Part shown: positions 9,897 to 38,332 of the stretch, in pieces
Position numbering within the stretch: position 1 is the stretch's first letter
How the letters are laid out: every line of letters starts with the position of its first letter
Source: a virus
Reading direction: 5' to 3' (one strand)
DNA length: 39,179 bases
IMG/VR virus record: IMGVR_UViG_3300031885_000053
Span: 1-39,179 of that record
The notes under the pieces: generated by a model
The model's input: the letters and a program-made list of their open reading frames with translations, nothing else
Database searches by the model: none
Told to the model about the DNA's origin: nothing
Program-made: the position numbers and the translations under genes

Positions 9897-11887
9897 ATGG
9901 ACTCCTTGGAGCGGACGGGCTTGTAGGCGCAGGGGTTATCGGGGTGTCGCTGCAATCGTCCGGCAGCAAAAAGTTGTTCGCCGAGATAAGCGGCGGTCGA
10001 TCCGGGCGTTACGGATGTCCAGCCGGTTTGCCAGTCAAGATACTCTTCGGTTTCGTCCTCAAAGTGGACGAACTTCTCATCGAGTAGCGTTGCGTTCAGC
10101 CTGTCATTCTCTTTCTCGGCGGCACCTAATGCCTCTCCGGCCTCGCGTACCGCCACGCGAGAGTCGGCGACGGCGGCGTCGGCTCGCGCGGCGTAGGCCT
10201 CGGCGGCGACGCGGGCCGCGGAGGTAATAGCCAAATTATTCCGCAGGTCCTCAATCTCGGCCCGCTGCTTATCCCATACAATCTCAATGACTACTGGATG
10301 GGCCAAGACTCGGCACTTGAGACAATGTGTGCCGTGGTTAATCAGCGATCCGCATTGCGGACAAACGCGGTACATCTTCGGTCCATCGGGCGGCCAGTTC
10401 GCGGCGAGTTGGTTCTGAAGCATGGTGACGTGGGCCTCGGCGGCGCCGGCGCGGTTCTCGGCTATAGCCAAGAGCCACCCATACCGGCCCTGCTCGGCCA
10501 CGCGATAGAGCGCCTCGGCGGCGGCACGGCCCTTGGCTTCGGCCCGCAACTTAGAGATCTCGTCGGTGTCGGCGCGAAGGTTAGCCTCGTGTTCGTCTAT
10601 GGCCGTCAGCAGCGACAGAATGTTAGCGCGTTGCCGGGTGCACCGCTCGTCCAGTTCCTTGGCGCGCTTCTCGACATGGAACAACCGACCGTGGGCGACA
10701 AGAACGGCGGCATTGGCGGCGTCGCGCTCTTTCTCAGCCCTCTCGGCGCGGCACACCTGGCAATCGTCATAGTCGTCACCGTCACCGTCAATGTCGATAC
10801 AGCTCAAGAGATACCGGCGCGCGTGGACGCAGTCGCAGCCGTCCGTTTCCGCGCCGGGGGTGTCGAGAAACTTGATGCGGGCCTCAGCGGCGCCGGCACG
10901 CTTGTTGGCGGTGGCACACTGGTCCACCAGCGTCGAGATAAGCACGTCAACGCAGTTGCGGCCCGCGTGTTGACGTACCAGGGCGTTCAGGTCCAGGCCC
11001 GCCGCTTTCGCCCAACTGAAGCATGGCAGGATATAGTTATCTTCGTAGTTTCGCCACTTGTCGGTAGCGGCGGCAAGTTTTCGGCTCAGCGCTTCCACGG
11101 CGGCCGATCCGGTACGGGCTTCGGCTGTCTCGGCGCGCTTGTCGGCGCTATCGCGCTCGGCCTCGGCCTTATCGGCGTGGACATTAGCGTCGACGGCCCG
11201 CTTCGTGGCCGCGTCCCTCTCGGCCCGCGCGGCGTCACGCTCATTCTCGGCAGCGCACTTCCACGTCGACATCTGGCACAGTTGGCTGTTCAACTCTGAG
11301 ATGGCGGTGTCGGCGCTATCGCGCTCGGCCTCGGCCTTCTCGGCGCGTTGCGTGGCGTCACGCTCACGCCGAAGCGTTGCTTCGTATACTTGTTGGTTAG
11401 CGTCTGCGTTTATTGTTGCCAAGTCTTGGGCGGCCCGCAGAGTTGCCTCGGCCTTCTTGGCACGCTCTTGGGCGTCGTCGGCTCGTTTGGTGGCGAGGGC
11501 GTGACGCCCCAGTACCCCGTCACGCTCGGCCCGCATCTTGCCTAACTGTACCGTCAGGCACTGCACACCGCCGCGCTGGTGGAGCCAGACCACCCATTGC
11601 TTGTCCGCGTTTATGCCGTCGTCCCGATCTATCCATTCACTTCCGCAGTCGGGGCACGTCGGGCCGGTCTCGCCGGTGGCTGTGGCGGCGTGTACTTTCA
11701 TGGCAGCGAGTTCGCGCTCGTAGCAGGCGGGTGGGCGAGATTCCCATTGCCAAATACTAAGAGAACGGCGAGCCACGCGACCACAGTTCATTATGGCCCG
11801 TTCAGTTCCGTCAATATTAGTAAGTCTCGTTCCCAGAGATGCCCCGCAGTCGGGGCACTTCGTCGGAGCCGTCTCGATATCAGCCAT
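9893..11887 (-). CDS. large Ala-rich coiled-coil protein with zinc ribbons
   Basis: About 664 residues. Residues 1-60 hold the zinc-ribbon module shared with the genes at 6379 and 7208 (CPDCGASLG, NCGR, WQW, CYERELAAMK). A second Cys pair (CPDCGSEW) follows near residue 78. Then come long coiled-coil runs rich in AEAERDSAD and KRAxxAEAR heptads, a Cys-rich patch near the middle (CDCVHARRY, CQVCRAERA) and another ribbon (CPQCGSL, then CLKC) near residue 500. The C-terminal 50 residues are non-repetitive. It could be a scaffold or DNA-organising protein; no enzyme motif is visible. ATG at 11887 with AAAGGAGAAGG upstream, overlapping the upstream gene by 8 bp. Confidence 0.8.
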   Translation of the reverse strand: MADIETAPTKCPDCGASLGTRLTNIDGTERAIMNCGRVARRSLSIWQWESRPPACYERELAAMKVHAATATGETGPTCPDCGSEWIDRDDGINADKQWVVWLHQRGGVQCLTVQLGKMRAERDGVLGRHALATKRADDAQERAKKAEATLRAAQDLATINADANQQVYEATLRRERDATQRAEKAEAERDSADTAISELNSQLCQMSTWKCAAENERDAARAERDAATKRAVDANVHADKAEAERDSADKRAETAEARTGSAAVEALSRKLAAATDKWRNYEDNYILPCFSWAKAAGLDLNALVRQHAGRNCVDVLISTLVDQCATANKRAGAAEARIKFLDTPGAETDGCDCVHARRYLLSCIDIDGDGDDYDDCQVCRAERAEKERDAANAAVLVAHGRLFHVEKRAKELDERCTRQRANILSLLTAIDEHEANLRADTDEISKLRAEAKGRAAAEALYRVAEQGRYGWLLAIAENRAGAAEAHVTMLQNQLAANWPPDGPKMYRVCPQCGSLINHGTHCLKCRVLAHPVVIEIVWDKQRAEIEDLRNNLAITSAARVAAEAYAARADAAVADSRVAVREAGEALGAAEKENDRLNATLLDEKFVHFEDETEEYLDWQTGWTSVTPGSTAAYLGEQLFAAGRLQRHPDNPCAYKPVRSKESM

Positions 11888-17313: not shown

Positions 17314-17765
17314 GGCTTATCCTTCAGGGGCATCAGGGCACCCTCTCCGCCGTCGAAGCAAAAATAGATGGACTTCAGCCGCTCCGCCTGATGCCAACTC
17401 TTGGCGCCGGGCAGGGCGTCGATGAGTCGGTAATACTTGCGGGCAATGATGGTGCCGGGCCGAAGTACAACGATCCCATCGTCAGCCGTGACCGTACTGC
17501 CGCACGACTCGCAGGTAACGAGGCCGGGCCGAGTCTTGGGATCTGTGGGCCACGCCAAAAGTAAGTCGGCGTCGGGCCGAACGATTACGCCGGCCGCGCC
17601 AGGACAGCCACGGTCGGCGGAATCGGCCTCGCCCGGCGCCGGCACGGCGACGCAAATGCAAGCGTCGCTCGCATACCGGACGCCCTTAGACACCCACGGC
17701 TGCGACAAGACGTAGTGGCCGTTATCGTTATCGGCAGCACAGAACGGCTGAAGGTCGATGGTCAT
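17310..17765 (-). CDS. hypothetical phage protein with Cys pair, 151 aa
   Basis: Starts MTIDLQPFCAADNDNGHYVL and continues with GVRYASDACICVAVPA, a pattern seen in small phage proteins that resemble a single domain of sliding-clamp-like folds; this likeness is weak. A CESC pair near residue 92 may bind zinc with nearby Cys. ATG at 17765 overlaps the upstream stop by ATGA. It lies just upstream of the helicase and is coupled to it. Confidence 0.72.
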   Translation of the reverse strand: MTIDLQPFCAADNDNGHYVLSQPWVSKGVRYASDACICVAVPAPGEADSADRGCPGAAGVIVRPDADLLLAWPTDPKTRPGLVTCESCGSTVTADDGIVVLRPGTIIARKYYRLIDALPGAKSWHQAERLKSIYFCFDGGEGALMPLKDKP

Positions 17766-18058
17766 TTTCTCGCCCTCGCTTCCTCCCCCAAGTCGCACCT
17801 TCTGTATCCCATCTTCCACAGCAACTCGGCGACGGCGCCCGCGGTCTCGTTCACGGCCGGCTCGTCCAGGTCCGGCAACGCGGCGTGCAAGACTTCGTGG
17901 GCGGCGCCGTCGAGTAACTCTTGACCAGCCAGCCGAGCGTGCAAAACAATCAGTCGCCTATCGAAATGACACGCCCCGTCGTCGACCTTCAGGCGGCGCC
18001 ACGTCGTGCGCCACGGCTTGCCGCGGATGGTATGCCGGATGATGGGCAGATTGTTCAC
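17762..18058 (-). CDS. HExxH metallopeptidase-like protein, 98 aa
   Basis: A short protein with HEVLH at residues 54-58, followed by DEPAVNETAGAVAELLW, which supplies a likely third ligand (E71). The pattern matches a widespread family of small phage proteins with a zincin-type active site, of unknown substrate. Known zincins are metallopeptidases; whether this small one is active cannot be told. GTG start with GGGAGAGAGC upstream, directly after two hairpins of the 18.1-kb non-coding region, so this gene is the first of its transcriptional stretch downstream of that region. Confidence 0.78.
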   Translation of the reverse strand: MNNLPIIRHTIRGKPWRTTWRRLKVDDGACHFDRRLIVLHARLAGQELLDGAAHEVLHAALPDLDEPAVNETAGAVAELLWKMGYRRCDLGEEARARK

Positions 18059-18069
18059 GCTCTCTCCCT

Positions 18070-18099
18070 GGCGGGCGGCGCCCCTCGACGCCGCCCGCC
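18070..18099. repeat. 11-bp perfect GC hairpin
   Basis: GGCGGGCGGCG, an 8-nt loop, then CGCCGCCCGCC. No T-run follows on either strand, so it is not a normal intrinsic terminator. On the minus strand it ends only a few bases before the ribosome site of the 17762-18058 gene and could control its translation or stabilise the mRNA 5' end. Confidence 0.75.
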
Positions 18100-18147
18100 C
18101 GTCACAAAAAGTGCACCACTACTCGTGACGCCTTGCTGTCAAAGAAA

Positions 18148-18347
18148 AGGTCCGCGTGGGCGCGGCTTGCAGTTAGCGGTAGGGGTAAGCGCTCCGGCTT
18201 TCCCGGACTATCCCCAATCGAACGCAGGCTGCCTACGGCGCTGCGGGCAAGGGTTCCTGGCGTTAAGCGAGGCAGTCACCGCCGCCAGTTCACCTACCGC
18301 GCGACCGAGCCTCCAGTTCCTGGGCTGGCCCCAGGCGCTGCGGACCT
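18148..18347 (-). ncRNA. structured element A (candidate RNA)
   Basis: 200 bp bracketed by AGGTCCGC and GCGGACCT, which pair over 8 bp. Inside are an 8-bp long-range helix (18176-18183 with 18293-18300), a 6-bp hairpin CCTGGG/CCCAGG, a 6-bp helix CTGGCG/CGCCAG and a 5-bp hairpin TCCGG/CCGGA. On the minus strand the closing helix is followed by TTTTCTTTG, as in element B. Strand is inferred from that tail and from the flanking genes. No Rfam family is recognised by eye. Confidence 0.45.
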
Positions 18348-18365
18348 CTTTACTTTGCAAAGAAA

Positions 18366-18508
18366 AGGTCCGCCGGTCGGATTCCCGCAGCGCAACGCCC
18401 GAGGGCGGCTGCGACCACTGCTTGCGAGCAGTACCGACGTTCAGGGATTTTCCCGGACGCGCCAGGGCCGCAAGTATTACCCTCGACCACACGCCCGGCA
18501 GCGGACCT
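18366..18508 (-). ncRNA. structured element B (candidate RNA)
   Basis: 143 bp with the same 8-bp closing helix AGGTCCGC/GCGGACCT and the same TTTTCTTTG tail on the minus strand. Inside, GTCGG/CCGAC closes a three-way junction with two clear hairpins: ACTGCT-CGCA-AGCAGT (6 bp, tetraloop) and CGCAGC/GCTGCG enclosing CGCC/GGCG. A GTCCGGGAAA segment is shared with element A. The 3' arm of B can also pair with the 5' arm of A, giving an alternative fold. Confidence 0.45.
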
Positions 18509-18527
18509 ATTCACTTGTCACGGCTTG

Positions 18528-19307
18528 TCATAGCGGTATGATCTGGCTCGGCCCGTCCTCGCGGACCCGCGCCCACTCCTGCGGCGTCACGTCCGCAAAT
18601 GCCCGGCCGGAGAACATCTCGCCGACGATCCTGAACCACTCCCGCTCCAGGTCTTTCTGCTCCAACTTCTTCCCGCCGCCACTTGCCGCGAACGCCGCCC
18701 ATGCCTGGTCCATCGTGCACGCGAGGGCTGCGGAAACCGCCGCCGGAGCCGGAGCCTTGGCGGCCGGCGGCGCCGTCGGTGCGCCAGCGGGCTTGGCGGT
18801 CTGGACAGACGTGCCGCCGGCGTTGGCGCGGAACCGTGCGCCGAGCCGGTTCTTAATGGCCTGAGCCTTGGCGTCATCGGCCCGAGTCACGCCGCCGCCG
18901 CCCGTCGAGCCATAGGGATTGAGCCACTGGACCTTCAGGCGTTCCTTCTCCTCGAACGTCTCGAACTCGCACGTGATCTGCACCGGCTTGGTCGATAGGG
19001 CGGCGACGTTGGCGGCGCTGGAGTATTTTGGATCGTCGCTCAACCAGAACGGATCGGCGCCGTCCCATCCGAACGCCGCCTTGAGGGCGTCGATGGTGAA
19101 GGTGTTGAGTGAACCATTCTTGCATTCCATGTACTGCCACGACGTGATGTGCTGGCCCTCGCATGCCGCGAAAGACCCGTCGGGCTGCTTCTCCTCGAAC
19201 ACCTCGAACTTAACAATCAGTGTCGTCAGGTTGTTCTTCCCCGTCTCGTCGATGCCGCGCTCGATGGCGCGGGCGTGAAACACGCCCTCTCTGTCCAACT
19301 GTGACAT
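18528..19307 (-). CDS. SSB-like phage single-strand DNA-binding protein
   Basis: A 259-residue protein. The N-terminal ~130 residues show the layout of phage SSB-like proteins found beside Sak4-type recombinases: LTTLIVKFEVFEE, a TFTIDALKAAFGWDG segment, a beta-rich CEFETFEEKERLKVQWLNPYG stretch in two pieces, then a flexible Ala/Pro linker (about 145-185). It lies directly downstream of the Sak4-like ATPase gene, and Sak4 proteins are known to work with an SSB. The C-terminal 60 residues are helical and lack the usual acidic SSB tip. ATG with AAGGAG upstream. Confidence 0.72.
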   Translation of the reverse strand: MSQLDREGVFHARAIERGIDETGKNNLTTLIVKFEVFEEKQPDGSFAACEGQHITSWQYMECKNGSLNTFTIDALKAAFGWDGADPFWLSDDPKYSSAANVAALSTKPVQITCEFETFEEKERLKVQWLNPYGSTGGGGVTRADDAKAQAIKNRLGARFRANAGGTSVQTAKPAGAPTAPPAAKAPAPAAVSAALACTMDQAWAAFAASGGGKKLEQKDLEREWFRIVGEMFSGRAFADVTPQEWARVREDGPSQIIPL

Positions 19308-19388: not shown

Positions 19389-20654
19389 CTACCCGAGCAA
19401 CTTCCGCCACAACGACACATCGCCCTTGGTGAACACAATGGTGTCGGCCAGCGAGCGGCTCTTGGCCAAACACCACGGCTGCTCTTGCGGGTAGATCGTC
19501 CGGCTGCCCCTACCCTTAGCAACGCCGTCCTTGGCCACCTCGATGTCGTACCCCAGGAACAGCACGTGGTCGCACCACTCCTTGACCCGGGCCCGGATCG
19601 ACTGCTTCTCGGCGTGGTATAGACGCGGCTCGAACCGTAGATAGTCCTCGCCGGCGGGATTCGGCACCGTCGCCGTGCAGTCGTGACAGACCAAGATGAC
19701 ATTGCGGCCGGCCCGCTTGTGGGCATCGAGGTCAGCGAATAGACAACAGAACTCATCGTACAGGTGCCGGTAGCCCTTGCCGTAGCCGTAATCCTCGATG
19801 CGATCCGCCGACTTGCCTTTCTCCGTCTTGACATTCGCCAGTACCCACGTCAGGCACGCGCTCTCGGCGGCGGTCAGACTGTCGATTACGATGGTCTTGA
19901 TCTCGTCCCAGCCCGGCGCCGCCAGGGCGGCTCTCAGACCAGCCCAGTCCGTAGCCGGAATGATCCGCACGTCCCTGCCCTCCAGGTCGCCAGACTCGGC
20001 CAGCACCGGCAGGCTGTCGTCGAGATCCGCCACGGCGATAGGGCCGGGGGCCAAGAGGGCGAGACTTGTCTTGCCGATGCCGCCGGGGCCGTACAACTCA
20101 ATGGCGTGGCCTGTCGCCTTGCGGATGGTGGCGAAGGCGACGGCGCCGCCGGCGGGTCGCGGCGTGCTGCGGGGCCGGGGGGTTGGTGGCGGCGGCGTGG
20201 GGGCCGTGGCCTTTGCGTCGCGGGCGGCAAAGGCAGCCGCTTCGGCCGACTGGCGAGCCTGTTGCGCATACACCTCGGCGCTGTGGGGAGTCGGTAGGCC
20301 CGCCGCCGCAGCGTTGGCCAGCGCGGCCGAGTCGGCGGCGTCGGCTGCGTGGTCATCAGCCCTCTCAATGGCCTCGCCGGTCTCCGGCGTCGGCGGCTCG
20401 CGATTGATCTCCTGGTTATCGGACGCATCGTTCGCGGCTTCCTGCGCTTCGGCGTCGTGTGCAGCATGCTCACTGAACGTCGGCAAGGGCAGCACCGGCG
20501 TGGCCATCAACTCGGCATTCAGCGGCAGCGGCGCCGCGGTGGGCGCCGCCGAGTGAGCCATGAGCCTTGCCGGCCCGCCGACATTCCATGTCTTTGGGGG
20601 GCCTGCGGGGGCCGCCGGCGGCGGCGTGGGGGCAGTCGTACGGGGTGCGGTCAT
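19389..20654 (-). CDS. Sak4-like RecA-fold ATPase (AAA_24)
   Basis: A 421-residue protein. Residues 1-170 are Ala/Pro-rich and probably disordered. The ATPase core begins near 180 with Walker A GPGGIGKT (189-196), then VADLDDSLP, and Walker B IKTIVIDSLTAAE, and continues with NVILVCHDC. This is the pattern of phage NTP-binding proteins of the Sak4 group, which anneal DNA strands or load recombinase with an SSB partner. Sak4 proteins are usually near 220-250 residues, so the long disordered N-terminus is unusual. ATG with GAGGAGACCCCGC upstream. Neighbours (SSB-like protein downstream, RecB-like nuclease upstream) support a recombination module. Confidence 0.85.
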   Translation of the reverse strand: MTAPRTTAPTPPPAAPAGPPKTWNVGGPARLMAHSAAPTAAPLPLNAELMATPVLPLPTFSEHAAHDAEAQEAANDASDNQEINREPPTPETGEAIERADDHAADAADSAALANAAAAGLPTPHSAEVYAQQARQSAEAAAFAARDAKATAPTPPPPTPRPRSTPRPAGGAVAFATIRKATGHAIELYGPGGIGKTSLALLAPGPIAVADLDDSLPVLAESGDLEGRDVRIIPATDWAGLRAALAAPGWDEIKTIVIDSLTAAESACLTWVLANVKTEKGKSADRIEDYGYGKGYRHLYDEFCCLFADLDAHKRAGRNVILVCHDCTATVPNPAGEDYLRFEPRLYHAEKQSIRARVKEWCDHVLFLGYDIEVAKDGVAKGRGSRTIYPQEQPWCLAKSRSLADTIVFTKGDVSLWRKLLG

Positions 20655-20721
20655 GCGGGGTCTCCTCTGTTACAGTTCCGGGGGTCCAGCCGACGCCGCG
20701 GCGGCGCAGGCTTGAGTATTA

Positions 20722-20937
20722 TCACCGCAAGGTCGCGGAGTACGCTTCGGCCCACACGTGAATCGCTTTAGCGTACGCGGTCACGGTAGCATCGTAGGCG
20801 TTCACAATCTTGGAGTGATCGCCCACGATTTGGTCGATCTTCCCAAGTTGGGCGTGAGCCTTGACGGCCTTGGCAGACGCAGCCAGAACGGCTTTGTATG
20901 CCACATTGAGACGGGCGCGTGGCGTGGTAGCGGTCAT
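20722..20937 (-). CDS. small helical protein, 71 aa
   Basis: A single long amphipathic helix pattern (LNVAYKAVLAASAKAVKAH, later ATVTAYAKAIHVWAEAY). ATG with CAGGAGACCCCGC upstream, overlapping the upstream stop by ATGA. The leader is the same 20 bp as that of the Sak4-like gene. Its helical Ala/Tyr/Lys character resembles the next upstream protein. Function unknown. The 67-bp spacer after it contains nothing I can name. Confidence 0.68.
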   Translation of the reverse strand: MTATTPRARLNVAYKAVLAASAKAVKAHAQLGKIDQIVGDHSKIVNAYDATVTAYAKAIHVWAEAYSATLR

Positions 20938-21227
20938 GCGGGGTCTCCTGGTACGGGGGCGGGTTTGCCAGTGCAGGCATCGTGATACTTGGTGGCCGCC
21001 ACCAGCATGAGGCGAAGGGCCTCAGTGTAGTTGGTGCAGGCCAGTTTGTAAGCGTTGTACGCCTCCATGCCGACGGCATGAGCTGACTGGACTTCGGCGA
21101 GGGCGGCGGCGCATTTCTTGGCGCGCCACGGCGGCCACCATTGCGGCGACGACGGAGGATCAATGGGCGGGCCAAGGGGCACGCGGCTCATGGTCTCGCC
21201 CATGTAGGCCATAGACAAGGCGCCCAT
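20934..21227 (-). CDS. hypothetical helical protein, 97 aa
   Basis: The N-terminus is Pro/Trp-rich (PPIDPPSSPQWWPPW) and the rest helical (AEVQSAHAVGMEAYNAYK). ATG 21227 has GGAGATCTCGC upstream and so overlaps the nuclease gene by 40 bp. An alternative ATG at 21191 makes the usual ATGA overlap but has a poorer ribosome site. The C-terminus (APVPGDPA) echoes the nuclease's APAPGDLA because both encode the following gene's ribosome site. Confidence 0.66.
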   Translation of the reverse strand: MGALSMAYMGETMSRVPLGPPIDPPSSPQWWPPWRAKKCAAALAEVQSAHAVGMEAYNAYKLACTNYTEALRLMLVAATKYHDACTGKPAPVPGDPA

Positions 21228-31724: not shown

Positions 31725-31755
31725 CGAAAAAAGCCGAGCATTTTGTGCTCGGCTT
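31725..31755 (-). terminator. intrinsic terminator of the tail module
   Basis: On the minus strand AAGCCGAGCA, a 5-nt loop, TGCTCGGCTT, followed by a T-run: a 10-bp stem with U-tract. It ends leftward transcription of the tail genes about 90 bp after the last one. Confidence 0.85.
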
Positions 31756-37777: not shown

Positions 37778-38332
37778 CTAGTTATGTGCCTGTTGCTGTA
37801 GGATCACGAATAGAACCGCCGCCTGGACGAGTCCGAGCAGTGCCCCGTGAGCGTCGTCGGTCAAGCCTTCGGCGTCCGCGATGGTGCGCGTGAAGTCAAC
37901 GATACGAGTCGCCACGTCCGTCAGGCCCTCGGCGTCCGCAATCGTCCGCGCGAAGTCAACAATTCGGTCGGCCGAGTCTGCAATGCCAAGGGCGTCGGCC
38001 GCCTCGCGCACGTACGAGGCGACACGCGAGGCAGCGTCGGTCAGGCCCTCGGCGTCGGCCACAGTGCGGACGAAGTCCGCTACGCGGGCTGCCGAGTCGG
38101 TCAGGCCCTCGGCGTCCGACGCCTCGCGGACAAAACTCAGCACAAGCACTACGGCATCGGTCAGGCCCATTGCATCGTTGATCGTACGGCTATACAGAAC
38201 GCCGCCCGATGGCAAGAACGCCGGCGCGCTAATCGTCACCACAATCCAGCGATCCAGGTCGATGGCAACCGCCGCCATGGCCGGAGCGCTCACGGATGCC
38301 AATGCCCAGTTGTCCAGCGTTCCCGTATCCAT
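37778..38332 (-). CDS. tail protein with five 20-residue repeats
   Basis: 184 residues. After a beta-rich start, residues ~65-170 contain five tandem units of 20 residues, consensus RTIADAEGLTDxAxRIVDF, also visible as 60-bp DNA repeats. Repeats of this DSLGLTD type occur in phage minor tail proteins. ATG at 38332 overlaps the fibre gene's TGA (TGATG). Confidence 0.7.
   Translation of the reverse strand: MDTGTLDNWALASVSAPAMAAVAIDLDRWIVVTISAPAFLPSGGVLYSRTINDAMGLTDAVVLVLSFVREASDAEGLTDSAARVADFVRTVADAEGLTDAASRVASYVREAADALGIADSADRIVDFARTIADAEGLTDVATRIVDFTRTIADAEGLTDDAHGALLGLVQAAVLFVILQQQAHN

Follow-up and report, generated by a model that had tools for sequence, protein, structure and literature searches.

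Intrinsic terminators and attenuators place a GC-rich stem, formed as a local hairpin with a short loop, directly ahead of a U-rich tract, and riboswitches carry a structured core that is conserved across species. MITE-like elements are short non-coding blocks with terminal inverted repeats that occur in multiple copies and are flanked by target-site duplications. In rRNA precursors, tandem RNAs are each enclosed by a long-range stem and processed by RNase III. Here we describe two tandem blocks, A and B, in the DNA of a virus record of 39,179 bases (the window, that is, the whole stretch analysed), and compare them with these systems. The features of A and B most resemble those of RNA signals at which transcription halts or slows, a function that is predicted.

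On the minus strand, the genes follow the order PD-(D/E)XK exonuclease, Sak4-like annealing protein, a 259-aa protein, the region of A and B, a 98-aa HExxH protein, a 169-aa protein and a helicase. As all genes near A and B lie on one strand, a reading of the two blocks as parts of a minus-strand transcript is favoured. The gene upstream (18528–19307, minus strand) encodes the 259-aa protein, whose model is an OB-fold with a mean pLDDT of 67, higher in the conserved part; its best match is PrgE, an ssDNA-binding OB protein (E = 1.3e-4), many SSBs were matched too, and from this model we predict that the protein is SSB-like. The gene downstream (17762–18058, minus strand) encodes the 98-aa protein, with the motif HEVLH and without a family match, and single-protein searches with these two neighbours returned no matches. 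Relatives of the gene block, collected through helicase and alignment searches, come from contigs of IMG/VR and from genome bins that are for the most part planctomycete, a single Pseudomonadales bin contributing two loci, so that planctomycete hosts are likely for the phage of the window. It is an isolated phage, given that the closest relatives of the 259-aa protein are only about 40–52% identical to it.

The window holds other repeats and signals. Roughly 20 nt, comprising leader and first codons, are common to the starts of the Sak4-like gene and of a 71-aa gene upstream (20640–20661 and 20920–20945), which by its sequence is a duplicated ribosome-site region. Three GTCAGGCCCTCGGCG-like units spaced by 60 or 120 nt within a minus-strand open reading frame (37920–38105) suggest a repetitive protein, and within a 670-aa gene (11140–11325) about 30 nt, TGTCGGCGCTATCGCGCTCGGCCTCGGCCTT, are repeated directly and exactly at a spacing of 168 nt. 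Just outside B, the plus strand carries a sigma-70-like promoter match (TTGTCA-16-TATGAT, 10 of 12 positions; 18515–18542) directed antisense into the SSB-like gene; there are three matches of that grade in 6 kb compared to 0.9 expected.

An initial annotation, made from the letters alone, placed A at 18148–18347 and B at 18366–18508, each starting on the plus strand with AGGTCCGC, ending with GCGGACCT and followed on the minus strand by TTTTCTTTG, and both coordinates and letters are correct. AGGTCCGC occurs at 18148 (+), 18340 (−), 18366 (+) and 18501 (−), and the predicted closing helix AGGTCCGC/GCGGACCT encloses 184 nt in A and 127 nt in B; the U-rich tails follow the 3′ arms on the minus strand at 18140–18148 (A) and 18358–18366 (B). 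A repeat search shows that the exact shared unit is longer than had been stated, namely a 16-nt direct repeat, CAAAGAAAAGGTCCGC, at 18140–18155 and 18358–18373 on the plus strand, which contains the TTTTCTTTG tail read on the minus strand. Not one of 2,000 dinucleotide-preserving shuffles of the 469-nt region has a direct repeat of at least 14 nt (the longest is 13 nt), so the 16-nt repeat is not due to chance, and one 8-mer in four copies on either strand arises in about 1% of shuffles. A lone 8-bp inverted repeat is unremarkable, as the annotation itself had cautioned: the window has 272 of them at 100–260 nt compared to about 170–205 in shuffles.

The four ends are alike beyond these 8 bp (A left, TGTCAAAGAAAAGGTCCGC; B left, TTGCAAAGAAAAGGTCCGC; A right, TGCAAAGTAAAGAGGTCCGC; B right, TGACAAGTGAATAGGTCCGC), with a similarity, absent from the initial annotation, that runs outward into A/T-rich flanks and gives loose inverted repeats of about 19 nt. 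The left ends of A and B agree in all 16 nt of the repeat and the right ends have diverged, the outer (right) end of B at 18501–18520 being a diverged repeat copy (rc TGACAAGTGAATAGGTCCGC). At the junction of the blocks, B's 3′ arm and A's 5′ arm together make a near-perfect 34-nt palindrome (18340–18373), found both by inverted-repeat search and by folding calculation.

The region had been called non-coding, and this holds: with the codon usage of the neighbours, all six frames score negative and have no third-position GC bias, compared to 0.24 to 0.38 bits per codon for the real genes (helicase, Sak4-like, SSB-like, 98-aa and 169-aa), and the long open frames that cross the region have no Pfam match. 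On these grounds we rejected a protein-coding region. Apart from their ends, A and B are not detectably related in sequence, as their interiors align with a score of 14 that 87 of 500 shuffles equal, and A shows no similarity to the reverse complement of B (score equalled in 355 of 500). The segment TTTCCCGGAC (= GTCCGGGAAA) that the blocks were said to have in common is indeed present, at 18199 and 18449, in different places within the two; with A and B otherwise not detectably similar, it is weak evidence of kinship. Ends that stay constant around interiors that are free to vary indicate a function of the ends.

Folding supports B better than A. The three-way junction described for B is the predicted minimum-energy fold of its minus strand (z = −2.6, with 4 of 200 shuffles as good), and its plus strand folds at least as well (z = −3.1). 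For A, the closing helix has a probability of about 0.99 when A is folded alone, as for B folded without A; the total fold of A is no better than that of shuffles (z = −0.8 minus, −1.7 plus). The mutually exclusive folds, in which B's 3′ arm pairs with A's 5′ arm, were reproduced by calculation. In the full transcript neither closing helix forms, and the arms instead pair across the blocks, B's 5′ arm with A's 3′ arm at 0.98 and B's 3′ arm with A's 5′ arm at 0.78, the junction hairpin at 18340–18373 (−17.7 kcal/mol) competing with both closing helices. Computed for a growing minus-strand transcript, B is closed until A's 5′ arm emerges, and a mixture and finally the cross-paired state follow; such exclusive pairing would arise from any set of such complementary arms.

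The two further dyads noted ahead of the next gene are present as well, at 18113–18131 and 18070–18099, and the segment that holds them (18059–18147, just outside A) has the strongest fold of the region (z = −5.8). The former is a third terminator-like hairpin found by terminator scan, GCGTCACGAGTAGTGGTGC followed by ACTTTTTGTG (18103–18131, minus strand; TTTTT after the hairpin), and the latter a strong GC hairpin, GGCGGGCGGCG/CGCCGCCCGCC, directly 5′ of the ribosome site of the 98-aa gene. The same scan finds a local terminator-like 5-bp hairpin, CCGCGCCCACGCGG, ahead of the tail in A only (18152–18165, minus strand), and no excess of terminators over shuffles between 15000 and 21000. Across the 39-kb window, a T-rich tail that follows a GC-rich arm whose partner lies upstream occurs on the minus strand only in A, in B and in a short hairpin at 31730, and at one site on the plus strand.

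Searches for homologues brought up no relative of either block. Rfam 15 covariance models gave no match at the gathering threshold, by which we rejected a known Rfam family, and a relaxed search gave only matches far below it. An exact scan of IMG/VR with the 16-mer CAAAGAAAAGGTCCGC hit 19 contigs, none with the remainder of the element; in two of them (L012 and L013) the same arms form a short hairpin, and the others look like chance or coding matches. When the right end or the pair of closing arms served as the pattern for IMG/VR, the matches were apparently coding or unrelated and lacked both partner arms and the context of a U-tail. By blastn at E values up to 10, the records of phages and plasmids returned short fragments only. 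Of the short GC-rich matches that BLAST returned in 392 genomes of one phylum, half fell on the GC hairpin close to the downstream gene, and a pattern search there returned one coding-like match. Across Rfam, IMG/VR, the phage and plasmid records and these 392 genomes, the element is by sequence an orphan. Two further identities were rejected for A and B: an integron attC site (no RYYYAAC ... GTTRRRY outer-arm pair on either strand) and a tRNA or tRNA-like RNA (no ARAGORN match and no match to the model from relatives).

Related phages tend to carry structured RNA, of unrelated content, in the slot that follows the SSB-like gene. We read the stretch 3′ of the stop codon of the 259-aa gene in 28 loci with the same gene order and found a tRNA or tRNA-like structure in ten (L023, L025, L029, L031, L104, L108 and L123–L126), with ARAGORN calling tRNA-Met in L025, L104, L125 and L126, and a covariance model built from L023, L029, L031 and L108 finding these four together with L123 and L124. 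Six more (L027, L109, L112, L117, L130 and L131) show, no more than 110 nt past the stop, a GC-rich stem of 8 bp or longer, for a total of 16 of the 28; in the remaining loci the next gene is close by or the gap has no comparable stem. GGGCGGG-type stems follow the same upstream gene in relatives, as the GC hairpin does in the window, and the slot of L112, where a 12-bp stem closes a 35-nt loop and the tail ACTTTGTTTTCT follows, repeats the layout of A and B at small scale. None of these contents resembles A or B (BLAST; models R1 and R2), and the relatives' tRNA-like covariance models, run on the window, had one notable match, to the separate GC hairpin, and did not recover A or B.

Some of the related loci are of interest in their own right. 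In four of them (L023:3333-3476, L029:5630-5770, L031:5608-5752 and L108:4778-4925), a three-way-junction RNA domain is followed immediately on its 3′ side by a tRNA-like structure that has acceptor, T and anticodon arms (the anticodon being CAT, or CAC in L108) and no evident D-arm stem. RNAalifold finds five pairs with changes on both sides in this element, a model from it also finds the tRNAs of six other loci, and it is possibly an undescribed composite tRNA-like RNA. The helicase gene of three loci carries an intein-like insert with a CFPAGTLV start and a TYTANG..VHN-type end (L030:6340-7130, L031:6330-7150 and L120:5110-6145), in which a second frame (+1), nested out of frame, encodes a protein of 186–305 aa that looks like a zinc finger with a DUF559/Vsr-like endonuclease, the domains having been named by eye; an out-of-frame HNH insertion in a phage methylase offers a comparison (PMC11855218). 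In L130, the helicase bears a different intein-like insert, in frame and at another site.

Tentatively, and as a possibility rather than a probability, we read A and B as cis-acting, terminator-like intercistronic structures of a minus-strand transcript that would serve attenuation, 3′-end formation or processing. Such a transcript would run from the Sak4-like and SSB-like genes toward the 98-aa gene and the helicase. In each element, a long-range stem of 8 bp, weakly extended by A/U pairs, would enclose other hairpins and be followed at once by the U-rich tail, which is the arrangement of an intrinsic terminator whose loop is large and structured. A and B and the two hairpins that come after them, the third terminator-like one and the GC one, could form a multi-step attenuation, 3′-end-forming or processing block; the downstream genes would then be expressed less, or later, than the SSB-like gene, whose mRNA the block would cap. 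Once the polymerase has passed B, A's 5′ arm could displace the closing helix of B through the junction hairpin, so that B would work only before A is made. We infer transcription through the block, termination, processing and the effect on expression from the features described above.

We prefer a role in the transcript to one purely at the DNA level on several grounds: the two T-rich 3′ ends match exactly and the A-rich 5′ flanks have diverged, the corresponding slot of relatives contains other RNA structures, and two stem-plus-tail arrangements stand in tandem here and hardly any are found elsewhere in the window. An identical 3′ arm and tail next to diverged 5′ flanks would fit selection on a U-tail rather than on a symmetric DNA site. 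Against the same reading stand loops of 127 and 184 nt, far larger than in proven intrinsic terminators, the failure of either element to close on itself in the full-length fold, the plus strand of B being at least as well folded, the interior of A not being significant, terminators not exceeding shuffles between 15000 and 21000, and searches that brought up no homologue in which pairs could covary.

Its main rival, to our minds a doubtful one, is an inverted-repeat element that acts as DNA, whose four ends would be loose copies of the ~19-nt inverted repeat, either as MITE-like cassette ends or as sites for replication or recombination proteins, with the interiors as spacers. Ends kept around unrelated interiors, the near-perfect palindrome at the junction, a similarity that reaches into the A/T-rich flanks and a place within a replication and recombination gene block all agree with this, as does the appearance of A and B as an insertion between stop codon and GC hairpin, which in relatives lies within a few tens of nucleotides of the stop. 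Yet no second copy came up in IMG/VR when either end or the paired arms were used as the pattern, the 392 genomes of one phylum gave one coding-like match, target-site duplication is not above chance, and the two sides are unequally conserved, where the sites of one protein should be alike. A replication origin, which the initial annotation had also proposed, keeps its support from the neighbouring genes and has no other positive evidence; four repeat copies and short A/T-rich patches are seen, and the GC skew does not turn at the locus. That the ends alone are common to A and B and that no relative has anything similar would also be expected of a short end-sequence duplication without function in an unusually long intergenic region, which we hold to be quite unlikely: about 470 bp of non-coding DNA is costly in a compact phage genome, and one simple duplication does not give the alternating orientation of the ends.

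Among readings at the RNA level, it is unlikely that A and B are two discrete, trans-acting phage RNAs excised from the operon transcript, for instance by RNase III at the closing stems. Folded without its neighbour, each block is closed, B has more structure than its shuffles, and the tRNAs in the slot of relatives are likely released from the operon there; but the interiors are unrelated, A is not significantly structured, and neither homologues nor an Rfam match, even at the relaxed threshold, were found. The earlier proposal of a new structured RNA is not supported as a class, with no homologue in anything searched, unrelated interiors and a fold of A that is not significant. Very improbable is a regulatory switch that governs the downstream genes through a response of the two exclusive pairings to some signal: the computed passage of B from closed to mixed to opened as A emerges would suit it, but any four complementary arms would act alike, and neither a conserved ligand-binding core nor relatives were found. 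We also consider it improbable that the locus holds an undescribed phage RNA pair or two-state switch, whose tandem elements with a shared closing arm swap partners during transcription and time the helicase after the SSB-like protein.

If the transcript reading is true, the locus would be a compact means of setting the ratio of replication proteins within one phage operon, built from tandem long-range stems with U-tails whose arms compete. More broadly, phages of apparently planctomycete hosts seem to have a fixed slot after the SSB-like gene into which varied RNA structures are inserted, namely tRNAs, GC stems, tRNA-like RNAs that bear an additional three-way-junction domain and, in the phage of the window, A and B. 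The A/B element, an orphan without relatives, settles no open question.

Compared with described systems, A and B resemble MITE-like elements in being short non-coding blocks with terminal inverted repeats (8 bp exact, ~19 nt loose) and differ from them in their unrelated interiors, in lacking a target-site duplication (the longest candidates are 5 nt for A and B together, 4 for B and 3 for A, where random places in the window usually give 3–5 nt and up to 9) and in having no other copies in the IMG/VR scans, phages, plasmids and 392 genomes of one phylum. A conserved core as in riboswitches did not emerge, with no homologue in the phage, plasmid, IMG/VR and one-phylum searches. The tRNA and tRNA-like inserts of relatives have no sequence or model similarity to A and B but are likewise structured RNAs directly 3′ of the SSB-like stop codon. 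As in the RNase III stems of rRNA precursors, tandem units are each held within a long-range stem, although there is no rRNA here and the stem is short (8 bp and a weak A/U extension). Finally, A and B differ from intrinsic terminators and attenuators in that their predicted stems close over 184 and 127 nt rather than as local hairpins with short loops, with A alone adding its local 5-bp hairpin, and in coming as two tandem copies with one identical end, but they share with them a GC-rich stem followed by a U-rich tract (GCGGACC and TTTTCTTTG in both), on the strand of the genes and between two of them.
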